This document shows positions 3,802 through 59,281 of a stretch of DNA of 64,000 bases, piece after piece (within the stretch, counting starts at the first letter, position 1; each line of letters opens with the position of its first letter). The stretch is from Rhizobium sp. BK313 (GTDB lineage Bacteria > Pseudomonadota > Alphaproteobacteria > Rhizobiales > Rhizobiaceae), in NCBI RefSeq assembly GCF_014193655.1, contig NZ_JACHZQ010000005.1, forward strand, positions 124,001-188,000. The letters are read 5' to 3'. The notes below the pieces were generated by a model. It had not been told where the DNA came from and did not search any database. It saw nothing but the letters and a program-made list of their open reading frames with translations. Made by a program: the position numbers and the translations under genes.

Positions 3802-5313
3802 GTGAGCGAGCAGATTTACGACATTTTCGTTATCGGCGGCGGCATCAATGGCTGCGGCATCGCCCGTGACGCGACCGGACGCGGCTACAAGGTCGCGCTC
3901 GCGGAAATGAATGATTTCGCCTCCGGCACATCTTCCGGCGCTACCAAGCTCATCCATGGCGGCCTTCGCTATCTCGAACATTACGAATTCCGCCTCGTGC
4001 GCGAATCGCTGATGGAACGCGAAGTGCTCTGGGCGATGGCGCCGCACATCATCTGGCCGCTGCGTTTCGTCCTGCCTTATCACAAGGGCGGCATCCGCCC
4101 GGCCTGGCTCATACGCCTCGGCCTCCTGCTCTATGATCACCTCGGCGGCCGCAAGCTATTGCCCCCGACGGCGACGCTGAACATGAAAACCGATCCAGCG
4201 GGGAAACCGCTGAAGGCGCTGTTTACCAAGGCTTTCGAATATTCCGACGGCTGGGTGGACGACGCGCGCATGGTCGTGCTCAACGCCCGCGATGCGGCCG
4301 ATCGCGGCGCCACCATCATGCCGCGGACCAAGGTGATTTCCGCGCGCCGCGAGGGCGCCATCTGGGCGATCGAAACACAGGACACCGTCACCGGCGAGAG
4401 GCGCGCCTTTCAGTCGCGTATGCTGGTCAATGCCGCTGGACCCTGGGTCGACCATGTTCTGTCCGACGCCTTCGGCAAGAACCAGGTGCACAATGTCCGC
4501 CTGGTGCAGGGCAGCCATATCATCGTCCGTAAGAAGTTCGACGACCCGCGCGCCTATTTCTTCCAGAATCCGGATAACCGCATCATCTTCGCCATCCCCT
4601 ATGAGCAGGATTTCACCCTGATCGGCACGACTGACCGGGACTACAAGGACGACCCGAAGGATGTGAAGATTTCCGACGAGGAAACCACCTATCTCTGCAA
4701 CGCTGCCAGCGAATATTTCAAGGAGCCGGTCCGGCGCGAGGATATCGTCTGGACCTATTCCGCCGTGCGTCCGCTCTATGATGACGGCGCCTCCAAGGCG
4801 CAGGAAGCGACGCGCGATTATGTGCTGAAGGTCGAAGGCATAGAGGGGCAGGCGCCGCTGCTCAATGTCTTTGGCGGCAAGCTCACCACCTATCGCCGGC
4901 TGAGCGAACATGCGCTGGAAAAGATCGGCGAGGTCATCGGCCTCAAGGGCACGCCGTGGACAGCCAAGAGCTCCCTCCCAGGCGGCGACTTCCCGGTTCG
5001 CGGCTATGAGGCGGAAGTCGCCAAGCTGAAGGCGCGTTATCCCTTCCTCGCCGATCCGCATGCCCGACGGCTAGTGCGCCGTTACGGCACTCGCGCCGCG
5101 ACGATCCTCGGAGAGGCGAAAACCACGGCGGATCTCGGCCGCAGCTTCGGCAGCGATCTCTACGAGGCGGAAGTCCGCTATCTCATGGCACATGAATGGG
5201 CCTATACCGCCGCCGACGTCCTTTGGCGCCGTTCGAAGAAAGGTCTTTATCTCTCGAAAGACGAAGCCGCCGCGCTGGATGACTACATGGCCGGCACGCG
5301 GGTTCACGCTTGA
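3802..5313 (+). CDS. glpD: Aerobic glycerol-3-phosphate dehydrogenase
   Basis: A 503-residue FAD enzyme that oxidises glycerol-3-phosphate to dihydroxyacetone phosphate at the inner membrane and passes electrons to quinone. The FAD motif GGGINGCGIARDA is at residues 12-24, followed by GTSSGATKLIHGGLRYLE near 42-59, both characteristic of GlpD. The C-terminal domain includes FGGKLTTYRRLSEHA. The reading frame is open further upstream, but the start chosen is the GTG at 3802, preceded by GGAGGGG and giving the family's normal length. It follows the GlpR gene and a strong promoter. Confidence 0.95.
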   Translation: MSEQIYDIFVIGGGINGCGIARDATGRGYKVALAEMNDFASGTSSGATKLIHGGLRYLEHYEFRLVRESLMEREVLWAMAPHIIWPLRFVLPYHKGGIRPAWLIRLGLLLYDHLGGRKLLPPTATLNMKTDPAGKPLKALFTKAFEYSDGWVDDARMVVLNARDAADRGATIMPRTKVISARREGAIWAIETQDTVTGERRAFQSRMLVNAAGPWVDHVLSDAFGKNQVHNVRLVQGSHIIVRKKFDDPRAYFFQNPDNRIIFAIPYEQDFTLIGTTDRDYKDDPKDVKISDEETTYLCNAASEYFKEPVRREDIVWTYSAVRPLYDDGASKAQEATRDYVLKVEGIEGQAPLLNVFGGKLTTYRRLSEHALEKIGEVIGLKGTPWTAKSSLPGGDFPVRGYEAEVAKLKARYPFLADPHARRLVRRYGTRAATILGEAKTTADLGRSFGSDLYEAEVRYLMAHEWAYTAADVLWRRSKKGLYLSKDEAAALDDYMAGTRVHA

Positions 5314-5435
5314 GCAAGCGTTTCGGGAGCTTAGCACTACGGTTCGGATCCCCCGCGGGTGCATGACACTGGCGTGGTCCGACGGAAGCGTCTAAAAAGA
5401 CAGCCATTAACCTGATCGCTCATAGGCTTGCCCGC

Positions 5436-6413
5436 ATGACTGACTCTGGTGCGGTGATCAACTGGCTTCTCGACTCTGATCCATCGATCCGATGGCAGGT
5501 GATGCGCGACCTGCTCGACGCCCCGGAATCGGAGTGGATGGCGGAGCGGGCCAAAGTGGAAACCGAGGGCTGGGGAGCCAGACTTCTCTCTTGTCAGGAC
5601 GCGGACGGGCAATGGGCAGGCGGCGCCTTCTTGCCGGGTGATTTCGACCCTCGCGAGTGGCAGGAACGCGGTCAGCCTTGGACGGCCACGACCTTCTCGT
5701 TGTCGCAGCTCCGAGAGTTTGGTCTCGATCCATTGTCGGATCGGGCAAAACGAACTGTCGAATTGATCGGCGCAAACTCACGGTGGGATGAAGGCGGCCA
5801 GCCCTACTGGGAGGGCGAAGTCGAAGAGTGCATCAACGGGCGAACCGTTGCCGATGGCGCCTATTTCGGGATCGACGTCTCGCCCATAGTTCGCAGGCTG
5901 GTAGGCGAACGCCTCGATGACGGCGGCTGGAACTGTGAGAGAGCCAATGGCTCGGTCCGTTCGTCCTTCGCCAGCACGATCAACGTGCTGGAGGGGCTCC
6001 TGGAATACGAGAGGGCCACCGGGGGCACGCCTGCATCCCGTGAGGCGCGCAGATCAGGCGAAGAATATCTCCTGGAGCGCAACCTCTTTCGCCGTCTCGG
6101 CACCGGTGAGCCTGCGGACGAGCGATTTCTGCGCTTCGTGCATCCCAACCGTTGGCGCTACGACATTTTGCGTGCGCTCGATTATTTCCGCTTCGCCGCA
6201 ATATTGACCGGCGCTGATCCGGATCCGCGGCTCGGTGAGGCGATCGATCATGTTCGCTCCAGACGCCTCGAGGACGGCACGTGGCCGCTCGAATGGAACC
6301 CGACAGGACGAGTGTGGTTCGAGGTCGACGACGGGCAAGGCAAGCCCTCGCGCTGGGTCACATTGCGAGCGATGCGGGTGCTCAGATGGTGGGAGAGTGG
6401 TGCGTTCAAATGA
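5436..6413 (+). CDS. Terpenoid cyclase / prenyltransferase-like alpha-alpha toroid protein
   Basis: A 325-residue protein often annotated as squalene cyclase-like. It shows QW-type repeats of the toroid fold: CQDADGQWAGG (about residues 52-62), RLDDGGWNCERANGSVRSSF (about 158-177) and RRLEDGTWPLEWNP. The DxDD acid motif of true squalene-hopene cyclases is not visible, and the length is about half that of a cyclase, so it is a single-barrel relative with unknown activity. It starts 122 bases after glpD and is followed convergently by soxR. No other terpenoid gene is nearby. Confidence 0.75.
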   Translation: MTDSGAVINWLLDSDPSIRWQVMRDLLDAPESEWMAERAKVETEGWGARLLSCQDADGQWAGGAFLPGDFDPREWQERGQPWTATTFSLSQLREFGLDPLSDRAKRTVELIGANSRWDEGGQPYWEGEVEECINGRTVADGAYFGIDVSPIVRRLVGERLDDGGWNCERANGSVRSSFASTINVLEGLLEYERATGGTPASREARRSGEEYLLERNLFRRLGTGEPADERFLRFVHPNRWRYDILRALDYFRFAAILTGADPDPRLGEAIDHVRSRRLEDGTWPLEWNPTGRVWFEVDDGQGKPSRWVTLRAMRVLRWWESGAFK

Positions 6414-51197: not shown

Positions 51198-51632
51198 TTA
51201 TCCAGTGCCCCTCCGGAGAGGATTGACGATATCCAGACCCCAAAAATCTCTTTCGTTGTCTGTTACCAAAACACAATCATTTACGACTGCAACCGAGGCT
51301 GCGATCATATCAAAGGGATCGCGTGGCCGACCCGCCGCTCTTCCTTCGGCCATAAGTGCTGCCCAGACCAACCCGGCACGCTCGTCAAAAGGAAGAATCC
51401 GGCCGGTAAACACTGCCTGTGGCCCCGCACGGCTTGAAAACCACGCTTCCAGCAAATTGCGTTTGCGTCCCGCCGGCATGATCAAAATACCGCGCTGAAT
51501 CTCGGCAACTACAAGTGACGGAACAAACAAATCGCTATCTACCTGCTCCTCATACCATGCCAGAAGAGCAAGCGAGGGTTCAGGCTTAATCGCATTGCTG
51601 ACGATATTGGTATCAAGCAAATAGCGCTTCAC
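51198..51632 (-). CDS. VapC-type PIN-domain toxin (type II toxin-antitoxin)
   Basis: A 144-residue PIN ribonuclease. Active-site acids are visible: Asp in YLLDTNIVSN near residue 7, Glu in VVAEIQRGI near 44, Asp in RDPFDMIAAS near 105 and Asp in VLVTDNERDFWGL near 125. ATGA overlap with the antitoxin gene shows coupling. FitB-like spacing is present. The likely target is RNA. Confidence 0.92.
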   Translation of the reverse strand: MKRYLLDTNIVSNAIKPEPSLALLAWYEEQVDSDLFVPSLVVAEIQRGILIMPAGRKRNLLEAWFSSRAGPQAVFTGRILPFDERAGLVWAALMAEGRAAGRPRDPFDMIAASVAVVNDCVLVTDNERDFWGLDIVNPLRRGTG

Positions 51633-51928
51633 AGATCGATCTCTCGCGGCTGAGTTCGTGGCCGTTCGAGATCGAGTTCCGCGTCCTCAAGAGGAAAGCT
51701 CCGCAGTGCGGCGATGACGCCGCCCTTCTTTGGCGGATCACTCGATATCGTCTTGGCGACGACATCGCGAATGCGGGCCGATTCAGGACTGTCCTCCGCC
51801 AAACGTCGCGCCAGCGAGCGAATGAGAGCACGATCGCCATCAAGACCGAGCACCTCGAAACGGGCTAGACCACGTTCGCCAAGGCGAGAACGGTAATTCT
51901 GAATCGCGCGTTTTTGTGAGCTGCCCAT
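51629..51928 (-). CDS. Antitoxin of the VapC-type toxin
   Basis: A 99-residue small basic protein: MGSSQKRAIQNYRSRLGERG at the start resembles a ribbon-helix-helix-like or MetJ/VapB strand-helix region (RLGERGLARFEVLGLDGDR), followed by an acidic C-terminal tail (PLEDAELDLERPRTQP) that would wrap the toxin. The gene precedes the toxin with a four-base overlap and has GGAGG upstream. Direct repeats over the promoter suggest autoregulation. Confidence 0.82.
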   Translation of the reverse strand: MGSSQKRAIQNYRSRLGERGLARFEVLGLDGDRALIRSLARRLAEDSPESARIRDVVAKTISSDPPKKGGVIAALRSFPLEDAELDLERPRTQPREIDL

Positions 51929-51986: not shown

Positions 51987-52976
51987 TTATTCCGTGGTGA
52001 TCGGCCGCGTCATCAGTTGCTCGATAGCAGTCGGGATATCCAGCTTGCCGTCGATGATGGCCGAGACCGCTTCTGTGATCGGCATGTCGACACCGAGCCC
52101 CCTTGCTAGGCGCGCCGCGATGGAGGCGGCATAGGCGCCTTCGACGAGATCGCCATGCGATGGATCGGCCGTCTCGCCGCGGCCGAGCGCAATGCCGAAG
52201 CGCAGGTTGCGGGATTGGTGGCTGGTCGCGGTCAGCACGAGATCGCCTAGGCCGGAAAGCCCGCGCACCGTCTCTGCCTTGCCGCCCTTGGCAAAGACAA
52301 AGCGCGACATTTCCGCAAGGCCACGGCTGATCAGCGCCGCGCGCGCCGAATCGCCGATGCCGCGCCCTTCGACAATGCCGCAGGCAATCGCCAAAACATT
52401 CTTCAGCGCACCGCCAAGCTGCACGCCCACGCGATCGTCGGAAGCATAGAGACGGAATGTCGGCCCTGAAATCGCCTGCGCCAGCCGTTCCGCCACCGCC
52501 ATATCCGCAGCCGCGATCGCCATGGCCGTCGGCAAGCCCTTGGCAATATCAGTGGCAAAGCCCGGCCCGGAGAGAACGGCGATGGCGTGGTGCGGCAATT
52601 CCCGCTCCAACATGTCGGTCAGCAGGTCGCCGGAGACCTTGTCGATGCCCTTGGCGCAGGTGACGACGATGGCATCCTGCGCCAGATAAGGCCCGTAATG
52701 ACGTGCAGCATCCGCCTGGGCCTGCGACGGCATGGCGAAAAGCACGATGCCGGCATCCGAAATCGCGTCAGGCTCGGCGGAAAATTGCAGCGAGTCCGGC
52801 AGATCGATGCCCGGCAAGGCCGTGTCATGCATCCGGTCAGCCCTGAGATCTGCCATCAGCGCCGCCTTGCGCCCGACCAGCGTCACCTGGCTCTTTCCGG
52901 TCAGGGCGATGACGGCGGCGAGCGCCGTGCCGAAGGCGCCGGCGCCGACCACCGCGATCCGCTCATTGTCGCTCAT
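51987..52976 (-). CDS. gpsA: NAD(P)H-dependent glycerol-3-phosphate dehydrogenase
   Basis: A 329-residue enzyme that makes sn-glycerol-3-phosphate for phospholipids from dihydroxyacetone phosphate. The nucleotide motif [20 protein letters not shown] is near residues 8-27, the catalytic Lys lies in [15 protein letters not shown] near 186-200, and [14 protein letters not shown] near 241-254 is conserved. Its start overlaps the tsaD stop by four bases (ATGA). Confidence 0.96.
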
Positions 52977-54070
52977 GCCTTCGCTCCTCGTTTGCCGTGC
53001 CCCAAAAGAGTTTCCGCCTTCTGATCGAGCGGCCAGCGCGAGCGCGGCTGCACATCGAGGCCGTCGGGCGCTGCGCCTGTCGCCATGCGCTCCAGGCCCG
53101 CCCAGGCGATCATCACGGCGTTATCGGTACAGAGCCTGAGCGGCGGCGCGATGAACCGGAAACCATTGAGATCGCAGAGCTCTTGCAGCGTGCGACGCAG
53201 CTCGAGATTGGCAGCGACGCCGCCGGCAACAACCAACGCCGGCTTGTCCGCTGTCTTCGGAAAATCCCTTTTGAAACGCTGCAGGCCGCGCCCGATGCGG
53301 TCCTTCAATGTGCGCGAGATCGCCTTCTGGAAGGAAGCACAGATATCTGCGACATCCTGCTCGGTTACCGGCGCGATTGCCGTTGCCGCCTGTCGCACCG
53401 CAGTCTTGAGCCCGGAGAAGGAAAAGTCCAGACGGGTCTCGCCGACCAGCGGCCGCGGAAAATCAAATCGATCCGGATCGCCGTTCTTCGCAGCCGCTTC
53501 GACCGCCGGGCCGCCGGGATAAGGCAGTCCGAGCAGCTTCGCCGTCTTGTCGAAGGCTTCGCCCAACGCATCGTCGATGGTCGTGCCCCAGCGCTCGTAT
53601 TCGCCGACGCCGCGCACCAAAATCAGTTGCGTATGGCCGCCGGAGACGAGCAGCATGAGATAAGGAAAGGTGAGCCCGTCCGTCAGCCTTGCCGTCAGTG
53701 CATGGCCCTCTAGATGGTTGATGGCGTAGAGCGGCTTGCCGGTCGCCCTCGATATGGCCTTGCCGGTCATCAGCCCGACGAGCAGGCCGCCGATCAGACC
53801 GGGGCCGGATGTGGCCGCAACGGCGTCGACATCGGACAGCGACACATTGGCGCGCTTGAGCGCCTCGTCGATCAGGGTATCCAGCGCCTCGACATGCGCC
53901 CGCGCAGCAATTTCCGGCACGACGCCGCCATAGGCGCTATGCTCGTCCAGTTGGCTCAAAACCACGTCGGAGGCAACCGTGGCGGTGCCGTCGTCCCGGC
54001 GCTCGACAATGGCCGCGGCGGTTTCGTCGCAACTTGTTTCGATGCCGAGAATGCGAAGAAAGGGCGCCAT
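52973..54070 (-). CDS. tsaD: tRNA N6-threonylcarbamoyladenosine transferase TsaD
   Basis: A 365-residue ASKHA-fold enzyme that transfers threonylcarbamoyl to A37 of ANN-decoding tRNAs. [20 protein letters not shown] is near residues 8-27, the metal-ligand motif [11 protein letters not shown] near 122-132, [17 protein letters not shown] near 146-162, and the nucleotide loop [16 protein letters not shown] near 285-300. It is followed by gpsA in an overlapping pair and is divergent from hemC across 84 bases. Confidence 0.96.
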
Positions 54071-54154
54071 GGAAGCGGTTCGTTACCTGTTGGTCGATTG
54101 CGATGAAGCGGAAATATGGTTACGGGAACTGTCGGTAACAACGGATCAAAGCGG

Positions 54155-55084
54155 ATGCAAACAAAACCTTTCCGGATCGGCACGCGCGGCAGCCCACTTG
54201 CGCTGGCGCAAGCGCATGAGGCCCGCGATCGCCTGATGGCGGCGCATGGCCTGCCCGAGGAAATGTTCGAGATCGTCGTTCTGACCACCAAGGGCGACCG
54301 CATCACCGATCGTTCATTGGCGGCGATCGGCGGCAAGGGCCTGTTCACCGAGGAGCTGGAACAGAAGCTGAGCTCGGGGGAACTCGATTTCGCCGTCCAC
54401 TCTGCCAAGGACATGGCGACGAAGCTACCGGAAGGATTGGCTCTATCAGCCTACCTGCCTCGCGAGGATATCCGCGATTCCGTGATCGGTCGCACGGCGC
54501 CGAGGCTGATCGACCTGCCGCATGGCGCGACCGTCGGTTCTGCGTCGCTGCGTCGCCAGGCGCTCATTCGCCGCCTCCGTCCGGATATCAAAGTCATCAC
54601 CTTTCGTGGCTCGGTCGAAACCCGGCTGCGCAAACTCGAAGAGGGCCAGGCCGACGCGACGCTATTGGCGCTTGCCGGCTTGAAGCGGCTCGGCAAGGTG
54701 GATGTGATCACCGACATTCTCGATCCGGACGAATTCCCACCGGCGCCGGCACAAGGGGCGATCTGCATCGAAAGCCGCATCAGCGACAACAGGATGAACG
54801 ACCTGCTCTCCGCTATCAATGATGGACCGACCTTCGACACCGTTTCCTGCGAACGCGGCTTCCTGGCTGCACTCGATGGCTCCTGCCGCACGCCGATTGC
54901 CGGCTATGCCGTCTGCGAGGGTGATCACATCAGGTTCTTCGGCATGATCCTGACGCCCGATGGCCAGCAGGTGCACACCACCACTATCGAAGGCCATCGC
55001 CGGGACGCCGAGGCGCTCGGCACCAACGCCGGCCAGGCGATTCGTGCCGAGGCCGGCAGCACCTTCTTTGAAGATTGGACCTGA
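54155..55084 (+). CDS. hemC: Hydroxymethylbilane synthase (porphobilinogen deaminase)
   Basis: A 309-residue enzyme that joins four porphobilinogens. The N-terminal [20 protein letters not shown] is near residues 7-26, the catalytic Asp region is [15 protein letters not shown] near 81-95, and the cofactor Cys is in [13 protein letters not shown] near 243-255. I start at 54155 (MQTKPFRIG), the usual rhizobial N-terminus; an ATG 13 codons upstream is less likely. It leads the hemC-hemD gene group. Confidence 0.94.
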
Positions 55085-55090
55085 CATCCG

Positions 55091-55819
55091 ATGCGCGTCG
55101 TCGTCACCCGTCCTGAGCATTCGGGTGAACACACCGCCCAGCGGCTTGCGGAGATGGGGCATGAGGCGGTGCTTTTGCCGTTGTCGAAGCCTGTGCGCCA
55201 TCCCGGCACAGCCCAGCAAGCCCTATCGAACACTCAGGGCGCTATTGCCGTCACCAGTGCCGAAGCGATCCGCACGATGGGTGCATTAGGCCAGCTCCTC
55301 GAGCCTCATCTCAGCCGCCCGCTTTTCGCAGTCGGCAAAGCGACCGCCGAGGAGGCCAGGGACCTTGGTTTCACCAGTGTTTTTGTATCAGAGGGCAGCG
55401 GCACCGAGCTCGCGGAACTGATTTCCCGCGAATGGACCGATATTCCTCAAGCCCCCTTGCTCTATCTTGCAGGCTCGCCGCGCGCCGCGGGTTTCGAGGC
55501 AAGATTGACGGGGCTGAATATCCCATTCCGGACGGTCGAATGCTACCGCATGCAGGATATCGTCATCGACGATGCAACCCTTCGCCGGCTCTTTCTCGAT
55601 GCTTGCGCCGATGCCGTACTGCTCTATTCGCGTCAGACGGCGATACGATTCTTCAGCCTGCCCCTCCTGCAGCAACATCCGAGTTCCCTCGCCCGGATAA
55701 GATTCCTTTGCCTAAGCGAAGCGATTGCCCAGGCCGTCCCGACCTCCCTACATTCTCATGTGGATATCGCTAATATACCGGACGAAGACAGTCTTCTGGC
55801 GCTTCTGGCAGCGGAGTGA
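55091..55819 (+). CDS. hemD: Uroporphyrinogen-III synthase
   Basis: A 242-residue HemD family protein with two alpha/beta domains: MRVVVTRPEHSGEHTAQRLA at the start, AVGKATAEEARDLGF near 79-93 and LLYLAGSPRAAGFEARL near 123-139, then a C-terminal DAVLLYSRQTAIRFF. HemD is poorly conserved, but position six bases after hemC supports it. It closes hydroxymethylbilane to uroporphyrinogen III. Confidence 0.9.
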   Translation: MRVVVTRPEHSGEHTAQRLAEMGHEAVLLPLSKPVRHPGTAQQALSNTQGAIAVTSAEAIRTMGALGQLLEPHLSRPLFAVGKATAEEARDLGFTSVFVSEGSGTELAELISREWTDIPQAPLLYLAGSPRAAGFEARLTGLNIPFRTVECYRMQDIVIDDATLRRLFLDACADAVLLYSRQTAIRFFSLPLLQQHPSSLARIRFLCLSEAIAQAVPTSLHSHVDIANIPDEDSLLALLAAE

Positions 55820-55898: not shown

Positions 55899-57164
55899 AT
55901 GGTATCGGGAAACCCGCCAAACCATTCGAAGCCCAACGACGAGCCGATCACGATCGACCTGGAAGCTGAGGAAACTACTCAAGCCGCGGCCTCCGAAGAG
56001 ATGACGGAGCGAAACCACAGCGAACCCGGCAGCTCCTCCGCCGATGAGGTGGAAATGCCGCTGGAAACCGAGAAGGAGACGCTGGGGGAAGAGGTCGATG
56101 AGCCCATCGCAGAAGCTCCGGCAGATAAGCCCAAAGCCGCGAGCGCGCAGGAACCTGAGCCCACCCGCGCCGAGCAAACCTCGGCTTCCCCGCGACAGCA
56201 AGGCGCAACATCGGGCCTGATCGCCGCGGGCATTGTCGGCGGCCTGATCTCCCTCATCTGCGTCGGCGCCATCCAATATGCGGGGCTCCTGCCCGGTGGC
56301 AGGCCTGCAAATGATAATTCTGCCGATATCGCTGCGCTCACAGCCGAAATCGACGGGTTGAAACAGACGGTTTCCAATCTCGCCGCCGCTCCCGCTGCAA
56401 CACCTGATGCGACGCTTGCAGCCCGCGTCGCAGCACTCGAGACAGCGGCTGCCAATACCACGGCCGCAAGCGGATCGTCCGATGCAAGCAGCAGCGATGC
56501 CGACCAGAAGATTGCCGCGCTCGGCGCGGAAGTGGATCAATTGAAGGCGACCCTCGCTCAGGCGACGCAAAGCCAAGCCTCGTCCGACGCCGATGTCAGC
56601 AAACGTCTGGCGGACGCAGAGAAGAAGCTGAGCGGCCCGAGCCAGGAAAGCGCTGTCGCCCGGGCCATTGCGGCGGCGGCACTGAAGGCGGCGATCGATC
56701 GCGGTGGTCCCTTTCAGCCTGAGCTCGACACCTTCGCCAATGTTGCGCCCGATGACCCCGCAGTTACCGATCTGAAGGCCTTCGCCCAGACCGGCGTTCC
56801 CTCGCGCGCCGATCTCATTCGCCAGGTATCCGACGTTGCGACGGCGATCGTCAGTTCGACGCAGCAGGACGACCCCAACCAGAGCTGGAGCGACCGCTTG
56901 CTGACAAGCGCCAAATCTCTGGTGCAGGTGCGCCCGGTCGGCAACGTCTCTGGCGACAGTGTCGAGGCTATCACCGCCCGCTTCGAGGACAAGGTGAAGA
57001 ACGGCGATCTGCCCGGCGCCGTCACCGAGTGGAATAGCCTGCCGGACGCCGCCAAGTCGGCTTCCGCCGCCTTCAAGCAATCGTTGGAAGCTCGTACCCG
57101 CGTCGAAGATCTGGTTGGTGCAGCGCTATCGAAGGCGATCGCCGACACCGGAAAACAGAGCTGA
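55899..57164 (+). CDS. Mic60/mitofilin-like inner-membrane protein (COG4223)
   Basis: A 421-residue protein. An acidic, disordered cytoplasmic N-terminus (about 1-105) is followed by one membrane helix (SGLIAAGIVGGLISLICVGA near 109-128), an Ala-rich coiled coil (about 145-250, with AALTAEIDGLKQTVSNLAAA) and a C-terminal helical domain (FKQSLEARTRVEDLVGAALS). This layout and its place right after hemD and before hemY match alphaproteobacterial Mic60, which shapes intracytoplasmic membranes. No sequence alone proves the role. Confidence 0.85.
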   Translation: MVSGNPPNHSKPNDEPITIDLEAEETTQAAASEEMTERNHSEPGSSSADEVEMPLETEKETLGEEVDEPIAEAPADKPKAASAQEPEPTRAEQTSASPRQQGATSGLIAAGIVGGLISLICVGAIQYAGLLPGGRPANDNSADIAALTAEIDGLKQTVSNLAAAPAATPDATLAARVAALETAAANTTAASGSSDASSSDADQKIAALGAEVDQLKATLAQATQSQASSDADVSKRLADAEKKLSGPSQESAVARAIAAAALKAAIDRGGPFQPELDTFANVAPDDPAVTDLKAFAQTGVPSRADLIRQVSDVATAIVSSTQQDDPNQSWSDRLLTSAKSLVQVRPVGNVSGDSVEAITARFEDKVKNGDLPGAVTEWNSLPDAAKSASAAFKQSLEARTRVEDLVGAALSKAIADTGKQS

Positions 57165-57178
57165 GGACGGGTGAAAGA

Positions 57179-58783
57179 ATGACAAGACTGCTTATTTTCG
57201 CCGTTCTCGTCCTGGTACTCGGCTATGGCTTTTCCTGGCTGGCAGATCGTCCCGGCGATCTTTCGCTGGTTTGGGGCGGTGAACTCTATCAAACCAAGCT
57301 TATCGTCGCGGCCGGTATCCTGATTGCGCTCATCGCCGCCGTCATGGTGGTCTGGTGGTTCATCCGCTTGATCTGGACCTCGCCGCATTCCGTCACCCGC
57401 TATTTCCGCGCCCGCAAACGCGACCGCGGCTATCAGGCTCTGTCGACCGGACTGATCGCCGCCGGGGCCGGCAATGCGCTGCTCGCTCGCAAGATGGCGG
57501 CGCGGACGCGCGGCCTCATCCGCGCCGACCAGGAGCCGCTGATCAACCTGCTCGAAGCGCAGGCCGCGCTGATCGAGGGCAAACATGACGAGGCCCGGCA
57601 AAAATTCGAGTTAATGGCCAACGACCCGGAAACTCGCGAGCTCGGCCTGCGCGGCCTCTATCTCGAAGCCAAGCGCCTCGGCGCGCACGAAGCCGCGCGG
57701 CAATATGCCGAAAAGGCGGCCGACCAGGCCCCCTATCTCCCTTGGGCAGCGCAAGCGACGCTGGAATACCGCAGTCAGGCCGGTCATTGGGACGAAGCCA
57801 TCAAGCTTCTAGACCAACAGAAGATCGCTCGTGTCATTGATAAGGATACCGCCAACCGCCAACGCGCCGTGCTGCTGACTGCGCGCGCCAACGACAAGCT
57901 CGAAAGCGATCCGGCCGGTGCCCGAGACGATGCGCTGGCCGCGCTGAAGCTGTCCTCCGATTTCGTGCCGGCAGCACTTACGGCCGCCAAGGCATTGTTT
58001 CGCGAAGACAAGGTCCGCAAGGCCGCATCCATTCTCGAACAGGTCTGGAAAGCAGAGCCGCATCCGGAGATCGGCAGGGCCTATGTCCGCGCCCGCAGCG
58101 GCGATTCCGTCGCCGATCGCCTGAAGCGTGCCGAGAGGCTGGAGGCGATCCGCCCGAACAATGTCGAAGCGCTGCTGATCACGGCAAAGGCGGCACTCGA
58201 CGCCCGCGACTTCGCCAAGGCCCGCGCCAAGGCCGAGGCAGCGGCCCGCATCGACGCCCGCGAAGGCGCCTTCCTGCTGCTGGCCGATATCGAAGAGGCC
58301 GAGACCGGAGACCAGGGCCGCGTCCGCCATTGGATGGCGCAGGCACTACGCGCGCCGCGTGATCCGGCCTGGGTAGCCGATGGCTTCGTCTCCGACAAAT
58401 GGCTGCCGCTGTCGCCCATCACCGGCAGGCTCGACGCCTTCGAATGGAAGGCGCCCTTCGGCCAACTCGAGGGGCCGGTGGAAGAGGGCACGGCCGTCTC
58501 GGTCGATGCCGCGCTGCGGTCGCTGCCCCCGGTGAGCGAGGCGGCTTCCCCAACCGCTGCGACAAAATCGGCTTCACCAACAGTTGCTTCGCCGGCTGCC
58601 GGTACCTCTGTTATAGAATTGGAACCGATCGCGACGAAGCCGGCGCCAGCCCCATCCGCCGCCAAATTCGAGCCGACAAAGGAGCCCGAACCAAGGCCCT
58701 TCTTCGGCGGTGCGCCCGATGATCCGGGCGTGAAAGATCCCAAGCTTGAACCGGAACCCAAGACACGGCTCAAGCTCTTCTAA
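57179..58783 (+). CDS. hemY: HemY-type TPR membrane protein (heme biosynthesis operon)
   Basis: A 534-residue protein. Two N-terminal membrane helices (LLIFAVLVLVLGYGFSWLAD near 4-23, and IVAAGILIALIAAVMVVWWF near 42-61) precede HemY_N motif FRARKRDRGYQALSTGLIAA near 77-96 and TPR-like repeats through about 410; the tail from 430 is Ala/Pro-rich and disordered. HemY here is the HemX/HemY membrane protein, not protoporphyrinogen oxidase. It follows the Mic60-like gene by 14 bases. Confidence 0.92.
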   Translation: MTRLLIFAVLVLVLGYGFSWLADRPGDLSLVWGGELYQTKLIVAAGILIALIAAVMVVWWFIRLIWTSPHSVTRYFRARKRDRGYQALSTGLIAAGAGNALLARKMAARTRGLIRADQEPLINLLEAQAALIEGKHDEARQKFELMANDPETRELGLRGLYLEAKRLGAHEAARQYAEKAADQAPYLPWAAQATLEYRSQAGHWDEAIKLLDQQKIARVIDKDTANRQRAVLLTARANDKLESDPAGARDDALAALKLSSDFVPAALTAAKALFREDKVRKAASILEQVWKAEPHPEIGRAYVRARSGDSVADRLKRAERLEAIRPNNVEALLITAKAALDARDFAKARAKAEAAARIDAREGAFLLLADIEEAETGDQGRVRHWMAQALRAPRDPAWVADGFVSDKWLPLSPITGRLDAFEWKAPFGQLEGPVEEGTAVSVDAALRSLPPVSEAASPTAATKSASPTVASPAAGTSVIELEPIATKPAPAPSAAKFEPTKEPEPRPFFGGAPDDPGVKDPKLEPEPKTRLKLF

Positions 58784-58795
58784 GAATGGAATCGA

Positions 58796-59281
58796 ATGTT
58801 TGAACGCTTTCAGGAATTCTTTCAGAATCTGACCAAGGACCACCCCAAATCCGGTTTTGCTCCCGACGATCCGCGCATCGCGGTTGCGGCGCTCTGTTTT
58901 CAGGTGATGGAGGCGGACGGCAAGATCGAGGAAAGCGAGAAGAAACGGCTTCGCAAGCTGCTGAAGAGCCAATACGGTCTCGACGGCCGCCAGCTTGACG
59001 CACTGATCGCCGCGGGCCAGGAGGCCGAGAGCGAGGCGGTCGATTATTATCGCTTCACCTCCGACCTGAAGCGTCACCTCAACAGCGAACAGCGCCTCGA
59101 GCTTCTCGGCATCCTCTGGGACATCGTCTATGCCGACGGCGAACGCAGCGAAATGGAGGACCATGCCATCTGGCGGATAGCCGATCTCATGGGCATTTCC
59201 GACCGCGAGCGCGTTATCAAACGCCAGGAGGCTGCTGCCCGCGCCCCTGGTCGTAAGATGGAGACCGGGGATGATGATTGA
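58796..59281 (+). CDS. TerB-family protein
   Basis: A 161-residue TerB-like protein. The core from about 27 to 140 has IAVAALCFQVMEADGKIEES, RKLLKSQYGLD, FTSDLKRHL and LWDIVYADGERSEMEDHAIW; the repeated ADG.. acidic motifs are the putative metal-binding sites of the TerB fold. It is the TerB/DnaJ-type without a J domain. It follows hemY by 12 bases and its end overlaps the glutamine amidotransferase gene by 11 bases. Its function is unknown; tellurite resistance should not be assumed. Confidence 0.9.
   Translation: MFERFQEFFQNLTKDHPKSGFAPDDPRIAVAALCFQVMEADGKIEESEKKRLRKLLKSQYGLDGRQLDALIAAGQEAESEAVDYYRFTSDLKRHLNSEQRLELLGILWDIVYADGERSEMEDHAIWRIADLMGISDRERVIKRQEAAARAPGRKMETGDDD

Follow-up and report, generated by a model that had tools for sequence, protein, structure and literature searches.

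In the 64,000-nucleotide stretch of Rhizobium sp. BK313 DNA analyzed here (hereafter, the window), a gene next to hemY encodes a protein that, by profile comparison, is a true alphaproteobacterial Mic60, and in about a quarter of the sampled neighbourhoods Mic60 is covalently fused to the heme biosynthesis enzyme HemD. We propose that Mic60 and HemY form an inner-membrane module that would shape the membrane and offer heme enzymes a docking arm. We give this reading an even chance of being right, and the docking is the part that we infer. The observed parts of the module are the identity of the protein, its gene partnership, the recurrent fusion to HemD and the retention of Mic60, mostly together with HemY, in genomes where hemC and hemD were not found. 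The puzzle addressed is that a protein that builds cristae in mitochondria originates from a heme gene cluster, the reason for which is sought. The window gene itself is a known kind of gene in a known place. What is new and bears on the heme link are the patterns of fusion and retention, which make that link testable.

A Mic60 homologue beside hemY in the window

The initial annotation described a single Mic60-like feature at 55899-58783. The window does hold a mitofilin-like gene and a heme cluster, but this interval contains two genes, mic60 and hemY (Table 1), separated by 14 bases, with hemD ending 79 bases before mic60. Two N-terminal membrane helices were predicted in HemY from hydropathy, and the protein scored 77 bits against TIGR00540, under the cut-off of 142 bits. 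On the strand opposite to the hem genes lie tsaD, gpsA, yciI and an EVE gene. This head-to-head arrangement, TsaD-GpsA-YciI-EVE against HemC-HemD-mitofilin-HemY, was published by Bell and co-workers, who described the protein both as a diverged homologue of HemX and as a relative of mitofilin (PMC7641849). All eight genes of the published block were found in the window, on two strands, and the window differs from it by an extra PIN-domain gene and a small gene between gpsA and yciI. The PIN-domain gene (48.5 bits) and the overlapping small gene, which had no Pfam match, occupy 51198-51928 on the minus strand and look like a toxin-antitoxin pair; the block is otherwise conserved. The TerB-like gene that follows hemY gave an empty alignment when used as a single-sequence query against 100 fetched neighbourhoods, and may therefore be a local addition.

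Table 1 Features of the mic60 region (positions in the window; residue numbers refer to Mic60)
Feature	Positions	Strand	Description and basis
tsaD	52973..54070	-	Divergent from the hem cluster; TIGR03723, 420 bits
hemC	54116..55084	+	Hydroxymethylbilane synthase; TIGR00212, 331 bits
hemD	55091..55819	+	Uroporphyrinogen-III synthase; NF006621, 311 bits; Pfam HEM4, 88.8 bits
mic60	55899..57164	+	Mitofilin homologue of 421 aa with a single predicted membrane helix; Pfam Mitofilin
Short motif TIDLEAEE	55950..55973	+	Residues 18-25, in the arm N-terminal of the membrane helix; regular expression
Predicted membrane helix	56202..56258	+	Residues 102-120; hydropathy 1.83 over 19 residues
C-terminal helical mitofilin domain	56637..57161	+	Residues 247-421; AlphaFold2 helices (model residues 151-325); Pfam 257-390
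HemX-aligning part	56868..57014	+	Residues 324-372; hhalign 93.9, 48 columns; includes W330
hemY	57179..58783	+	TPR protein, 534 aa; PF07219 member; Pfam HemY_N, 89 bits (cut-off 31)
TerB-like gene	58796..59281	+	Pfam TerB, 129.5 bits; 12 bases 3' of hemY

The mitofilin identity proposed in the initial annotation was borne out. A profile search for the C-terminal mitofilin signature, set beforehand as the test that could refute it, revealed a match to Pfam Mitofilin (PF09731) at residues 257-390 (E = 6.2e-9, 35.8 bits, cut-off 27.4) that covers the C-terminal part alone. No other protein of the genome (8.0 Mb) matched PF09731 at E 0.001, and no NCBIfam model matched the window protein at E 0.01. 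A profile built from the window protein and 31 relatives (A1) had as its top match 7pv1, the solved structure of a Mic60-Mic19 fusion (E = 3.9e-12, positions 454-517), and its other matches were mostly coiled coils.

The predicted architecture consists of a single N-terminal membrane helix, long helices in the AlphaFold2 model, within residues 141-243, that would form a coiled coil, and the C-terminal domain. The mean pLDDT of the model (residues 97-421) was 80.6; in the C-terminal domain most blocks of 10 residues reached 95-98, with 75-88 in its middle part. Foldseek returned nothing at E 0.001 or better with this model, and a VIA fold search gave four-helix bundles (best Z 8.3), with Mic60 absent from the list. 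Lipid-binding site 1 (LBS1) of Mic60 is described as containing a functional aromatic residue (PMC12631773). W330 of the window protein is a candidate for this residue, register against the fungal protein aside; its column holds W in 63 of the 101 aligned sequences, a count that rises to 72 when F is included. At residue 392 (57072-57074), the window protein has F, and 99 of 101 aligned Mic60s have W.

Gene order, HemD fusions and retention

The place of Mic60 among the hem genes, between hemD and hemY, has been published for alphaproteobacteria (PMC7641849). The initial annotation had called this place conserved, and the fetched neighbourhoods agree. We collected 100 of them, 97 from class members and three from order lists; the 97 were hand-picked from 200 genomes with a match, stronger matches first and with some same-genus rows skipped. 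Among the neighbourhoods with room, hemY followed at a distance of no more than 600 bases in 92 of 94 (one more had it at 1.9 kb and one lacked it), and hemD was upstream of or fused to Mic60 in 90 of 93. The gene hemC was present in 84/93 and a divergent tsaD in 86/93. Such recurrence of the gene order far exceeds chance. The protein itself was found in all 37 same-genus genomes searched (our own and 36 others of 5.8-7.8 Mb), in 21 of 24 other genomes of the same order, and, by profile match, in 200 of 289 genomes of the class, a count that may include some coil-only matches. One class genome (G149, contig C1) carries three equal-scoring Mic60 copies (106-1437, 4407-5738 and 4597743-4599074), two of them opposed near the contig start, which probably reflects misassembly at the ends of the record.

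In 27 of the 100 neighbourhoods, HemD and Mic60 were encoded in one uninterrupted open frame. Because such fusions are common, the heme link is more than gene order. The initial annotation had called this link conserved but unexplained; conserved it is, but the order had already been published and the fusions exceed it. All 27 frames begin with HemD, followed by a hydrophobic helix (score at least 1.7, in a scan that covered only the stretch between HemD and the mitofilin domain) and the mitofilin domain. Pfam searches on six fused frames detected HEM4 in all six and Mitofilin in five; the sixth frame (locus L191) scored 97 bits against our own C-terminal profile. The fused frame of Dongia mobilis matched both HEM4 (139.7 bits) and Mitofilin (44.7 bits). 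When fused proteins were used to search named genomes, 33 of the 80 loci obtained were fused, which is no frequency since the query was made of fusions; seven of the 80 had no visible Mic60. The two sets overlap, L223 being identical in sequence to L135 and L280 (Aestuariispira insulae) being the same as L191; Pfam likewise gave no Mitofilin match in L280. Fused records not titled as metagenome-assembled genomes (MAGs) include Dongia mobilis, Dongia deserti, Rhodospirillaceae bacterium R-7, Sneathiella chungangensis, Sneathiella litorea, Aestuariispira insulae and Hwanghaeella grinnelliae. Therefore, the fusions do not stem from errors in assembling metagenomes. A quick tree built from hemC, tsaD and hemY (93 rows) showed at least 18 changes between the fused and the free state, with gain and loss indistinguishable. 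Literature word searches showed no HemD-Mic60 fusion in titles and abstract openings; earlier Mic60 papers may mention them.

HemD is a cytosolic enzyme. Since it precedes the helix in all the fused frames, the arm of Mic60 should face the cytoplasm, which would place the mitofilin domain beyond the inner membrane. The natural fusions, some of which occur in isolates (Dongia mobilis and Sneathiella litorea among them), separate possible answers to the puzzle and offer concrete strains and constructs for testing. The retention of Mic60, mostly with HemY, where hemC and hemD were not found likewise splits the candidate answers.

This retention was seen among 11 chosen genomes, most of them small, seven of which had a Mic60 match but no HemY row. 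A HEM4 match was absent in nine of the 11, and two genomes (G464 and G359) were left out of the retention count, their Mic60 match being coil-like or unrelated. In the seven Mic60 genomes without HEM4 (hemD), hemC gave no match either; six of these genomes are 99 to 100% complete and one (G335) is 78% complete. In five of the seven, hemY lies beside Mic60 (in one case as a weak piece of 26.8 bits), and in two no adjoining hemY was found. The five include a reduced genome of 1.5 Mb (G208) that belongs to the same family as the window. The pattern in these seven genomes suggests that the Mic60-HemY pair outlives HemC-HemD, that Mic60 can outlive all its hem neighbours, and that neither HemD nor HemY is obligatory for Mic60. 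It rules out Mic60 solely as a holder of HemD, and, as far as sequence matches can tell, it counts against a purely heme-serving Mic60.

The same seven genomes, the reduced one included, speak for an alternative in which Mic60 only shapes the inner membrane and the hem genes are co-expressed operon neighbours, since more bioenergetic membrane needs more heme. The phenotypes reported for bacterial Mic60, which concern intracytoplasmic membranes and membrane deformation (PMC12136173), are in line with it. Co-expression, however, cannot account for the single HemD-Mic60 chain of 27 of the 100 neighbourhoods, repeatedly gained or lost, and it leaves unaccounted for that hemY stays by Mic60 in five of the seven genomes without hemC and hemD. 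We consider this alternative possible but somewhat unlikely.

A further alternative is that Mic60 chiefly serves HemY, in heme handling or in hemoprotein assembly in the membrane, with membrane bending as a by-product. No other neighbour is as constant as hemY (at most 600 bases away in 92/94), and hemY also adjoins Mic60 in those five genomes, which fits this explanation. However, the other two of the seven keep Mic60 with no adjoining hemY found. Moreover, mitochondria kept Mic60, and to our knowledge they have no HemY. Mic60 as mainly a servant of HemY seems improbable to us.

Variation of the N-terminal arm

The arm preceding the membrane helix varies in content. Some arms carry HemD or a DNA-binding-like domain, or the two together; others have a short motif, and still others lack all of these. 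The helix, the mitofilin domain and the HemY neighbour are steady. In the window protein the arm bears the motif TIDLEAEE. The corresponding expression, which was devised once the sequences had been seen and whose counts are inflated by kinship, matched 22 of 29 same-genus N-termini and 17 of 32 others of the same order (shuffle means 0.11 and 0.07). Among these 32, two (G013 and G009) were entered twice, both as misses, and several are truncated at locus ends or have variants outside the expression. Elsewhere in the class, the motif was found in five free arms out of 67, where shuffles averaged 0.27 and reached 3 at most, and in one of 27 fused arms. A search of the window's own genome for TID[LF]EA gave three matches, and by eye only that of Mic60 sits in an arm before a membrane helix. 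We also considered TIDLEA as a mark of several membrane proteins and rejected it: of the other two matches, one is an open frame of 79 residues and one lies inside a frame of 240 residues, in a search that fits TID[LF]EA only.

A helix-turn-helix (HTH) domain was found in 22 of the 99 arms scanned, six of which also carry HemD. These DNA-binding-like domains suggest that the arm can bear other cargo. A profile of the HTH from 18 named loci matched the phage Cro structure 3bd1 (E = 1.6e-5), and Pfam gave Cro and YdaS matches, all sub-threshold. Among the named loci, 26 of 80 had a Cro-like HTH in the arm (for example, L258 at 5909-6127), Azospirillum brasilense among them, and all eight Azospirillum loci not titled as MAGs had an HTH arm. 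The frequency of the domain, its likeness to Cro and its constancy in Azospirillum would fit a membrane-tethered regulator, the arm of which binds DNA or a regulator and signals the state of the membrane or of heme to the hem genes. Against such a regulator, the HTH domain is absent from the window protein and from most others, and its presence changes at least eight times on the tree. We regard a regulatory role of this kind as very improbable.

The reading that we prefer, a Mic60-HemY module, is that of a membrane platform with exchangeable docking, in which the helix and mitofilin domain would stay constant and the arm would change. In Mic60, a disordered arm in the cytosol would lead into one helix that crosses the inner membrane, and the coiled coil and the C-terminal mitofilin domain would follow, the latter outside the cytoplasm. 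The protein would work together with HemY, encoded downstream, in the inner membrane. By homology with studied relatives, the mitofilin side may bind and bend the membrane. The arm would dock heme-pathway proteins at the membrane, through covalent fusion to HemD in some genomes and as a free arm in the others. Membrane shaping would be the core duty of Mic60, and the docking of heme enzymes may have been added or retained in heme makers. In Rhizobium sp. BK313, HemD is a separate protein encoded in the same gene run. We infer docking there as well, with the conserved TIDLEAEE as the best candidate docking site. Several observations count against the docking reading: 73 of the 100 neighbourhoods are unfused, Mic60 is kept in the seven genomes without hemC and hemD matches, the HTH arms suggest other cargo, and motifs of the TIDLEAEE type are restricted to some clades, with only five matches among 67 free Mic60s from the rest of the class.

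Comparison with HemX and other Mic60 proteins

With other Mic60 or mitofilin proteins, including the Mic60 of Cereibacter sphaeroides, the window protein shares the C-terminal mitofilin domain, one membrane helix and the coiled coil. It differs from them in its short length (421 aa), in TIDLEAEE in the arm and in F392.

In other proteobacteria, HemX (PF04375) has the same gene place as Mic60, with hemD and hemY. In 30 HemX loci, hemY was found in all and hemD in 29 (at E 0.001, with some matches weak). PF04375 had no match in the genome of the window. Across 150 sampled genomes of the phylum, 31 of the 112 that lie outside the class had HemX, as did none of the 38 inside, and Mic60 matches reaching the C-terminal domain occurred in 31 of the 38 and in none of the 112. 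Outside the class, 22 of the 112 genomes did give Mic60 matches, which we discounted as coiled coil because all the pieces end by profile position 373; a coiled-coil match inside the class (G252) was likewise not counted.

Arm, helix and helical domain follow in similar order in HemX and Mic60. When both were compared with hhalign from the membrane helix to the end, 48 columns that surround W...LV.VRR aligned with a probability of 93.9%, against 2.7% for a reversed control and no more than 0.1% for any of six shuffles. Other cuts gave 24.5, 37.2 and 17.0%, and the full alignments 78.6% over 14 coil columns. Since only the helix-to-end cut was strong, one of five set-ups, homology of Mic60 and HemX is supported, not proved. 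A relation between the two, as others have stated, is likely from these alignments. NCBIfam holds a model for a HemD-HemX fusion (NF005411), whereas none of our 30 HemX loci was fused to HemD.

A heme link of Mic60 is also known from mitochondria, where MICOS is reported to bind ferrochelatase (PMC9133952, PMC12519212). In yeast without Mic60, heme synthesis is impaired when ferrochelatase is overexpressed (PMC9133952; an effect of Mic60 loss is also reported in PMC12519212). By analogy, the contact between MICOS and ferrochelatase may be seen as a parallel to the bacterial heme link, and we count it in favour of the Mic60-HemY module with its docking arm. A bolder explanation, which we hold to be quite unlikely, is that Mic60 and HemX belong to a single ancient family, whose first role was to scaffold the middle part of heme synthesis (HemC-HemD and HemY) at the membrane. 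Cristae shaping would then be a later use of this scaffold, and the contact of MICOS with ferrochelatase would be its relic.
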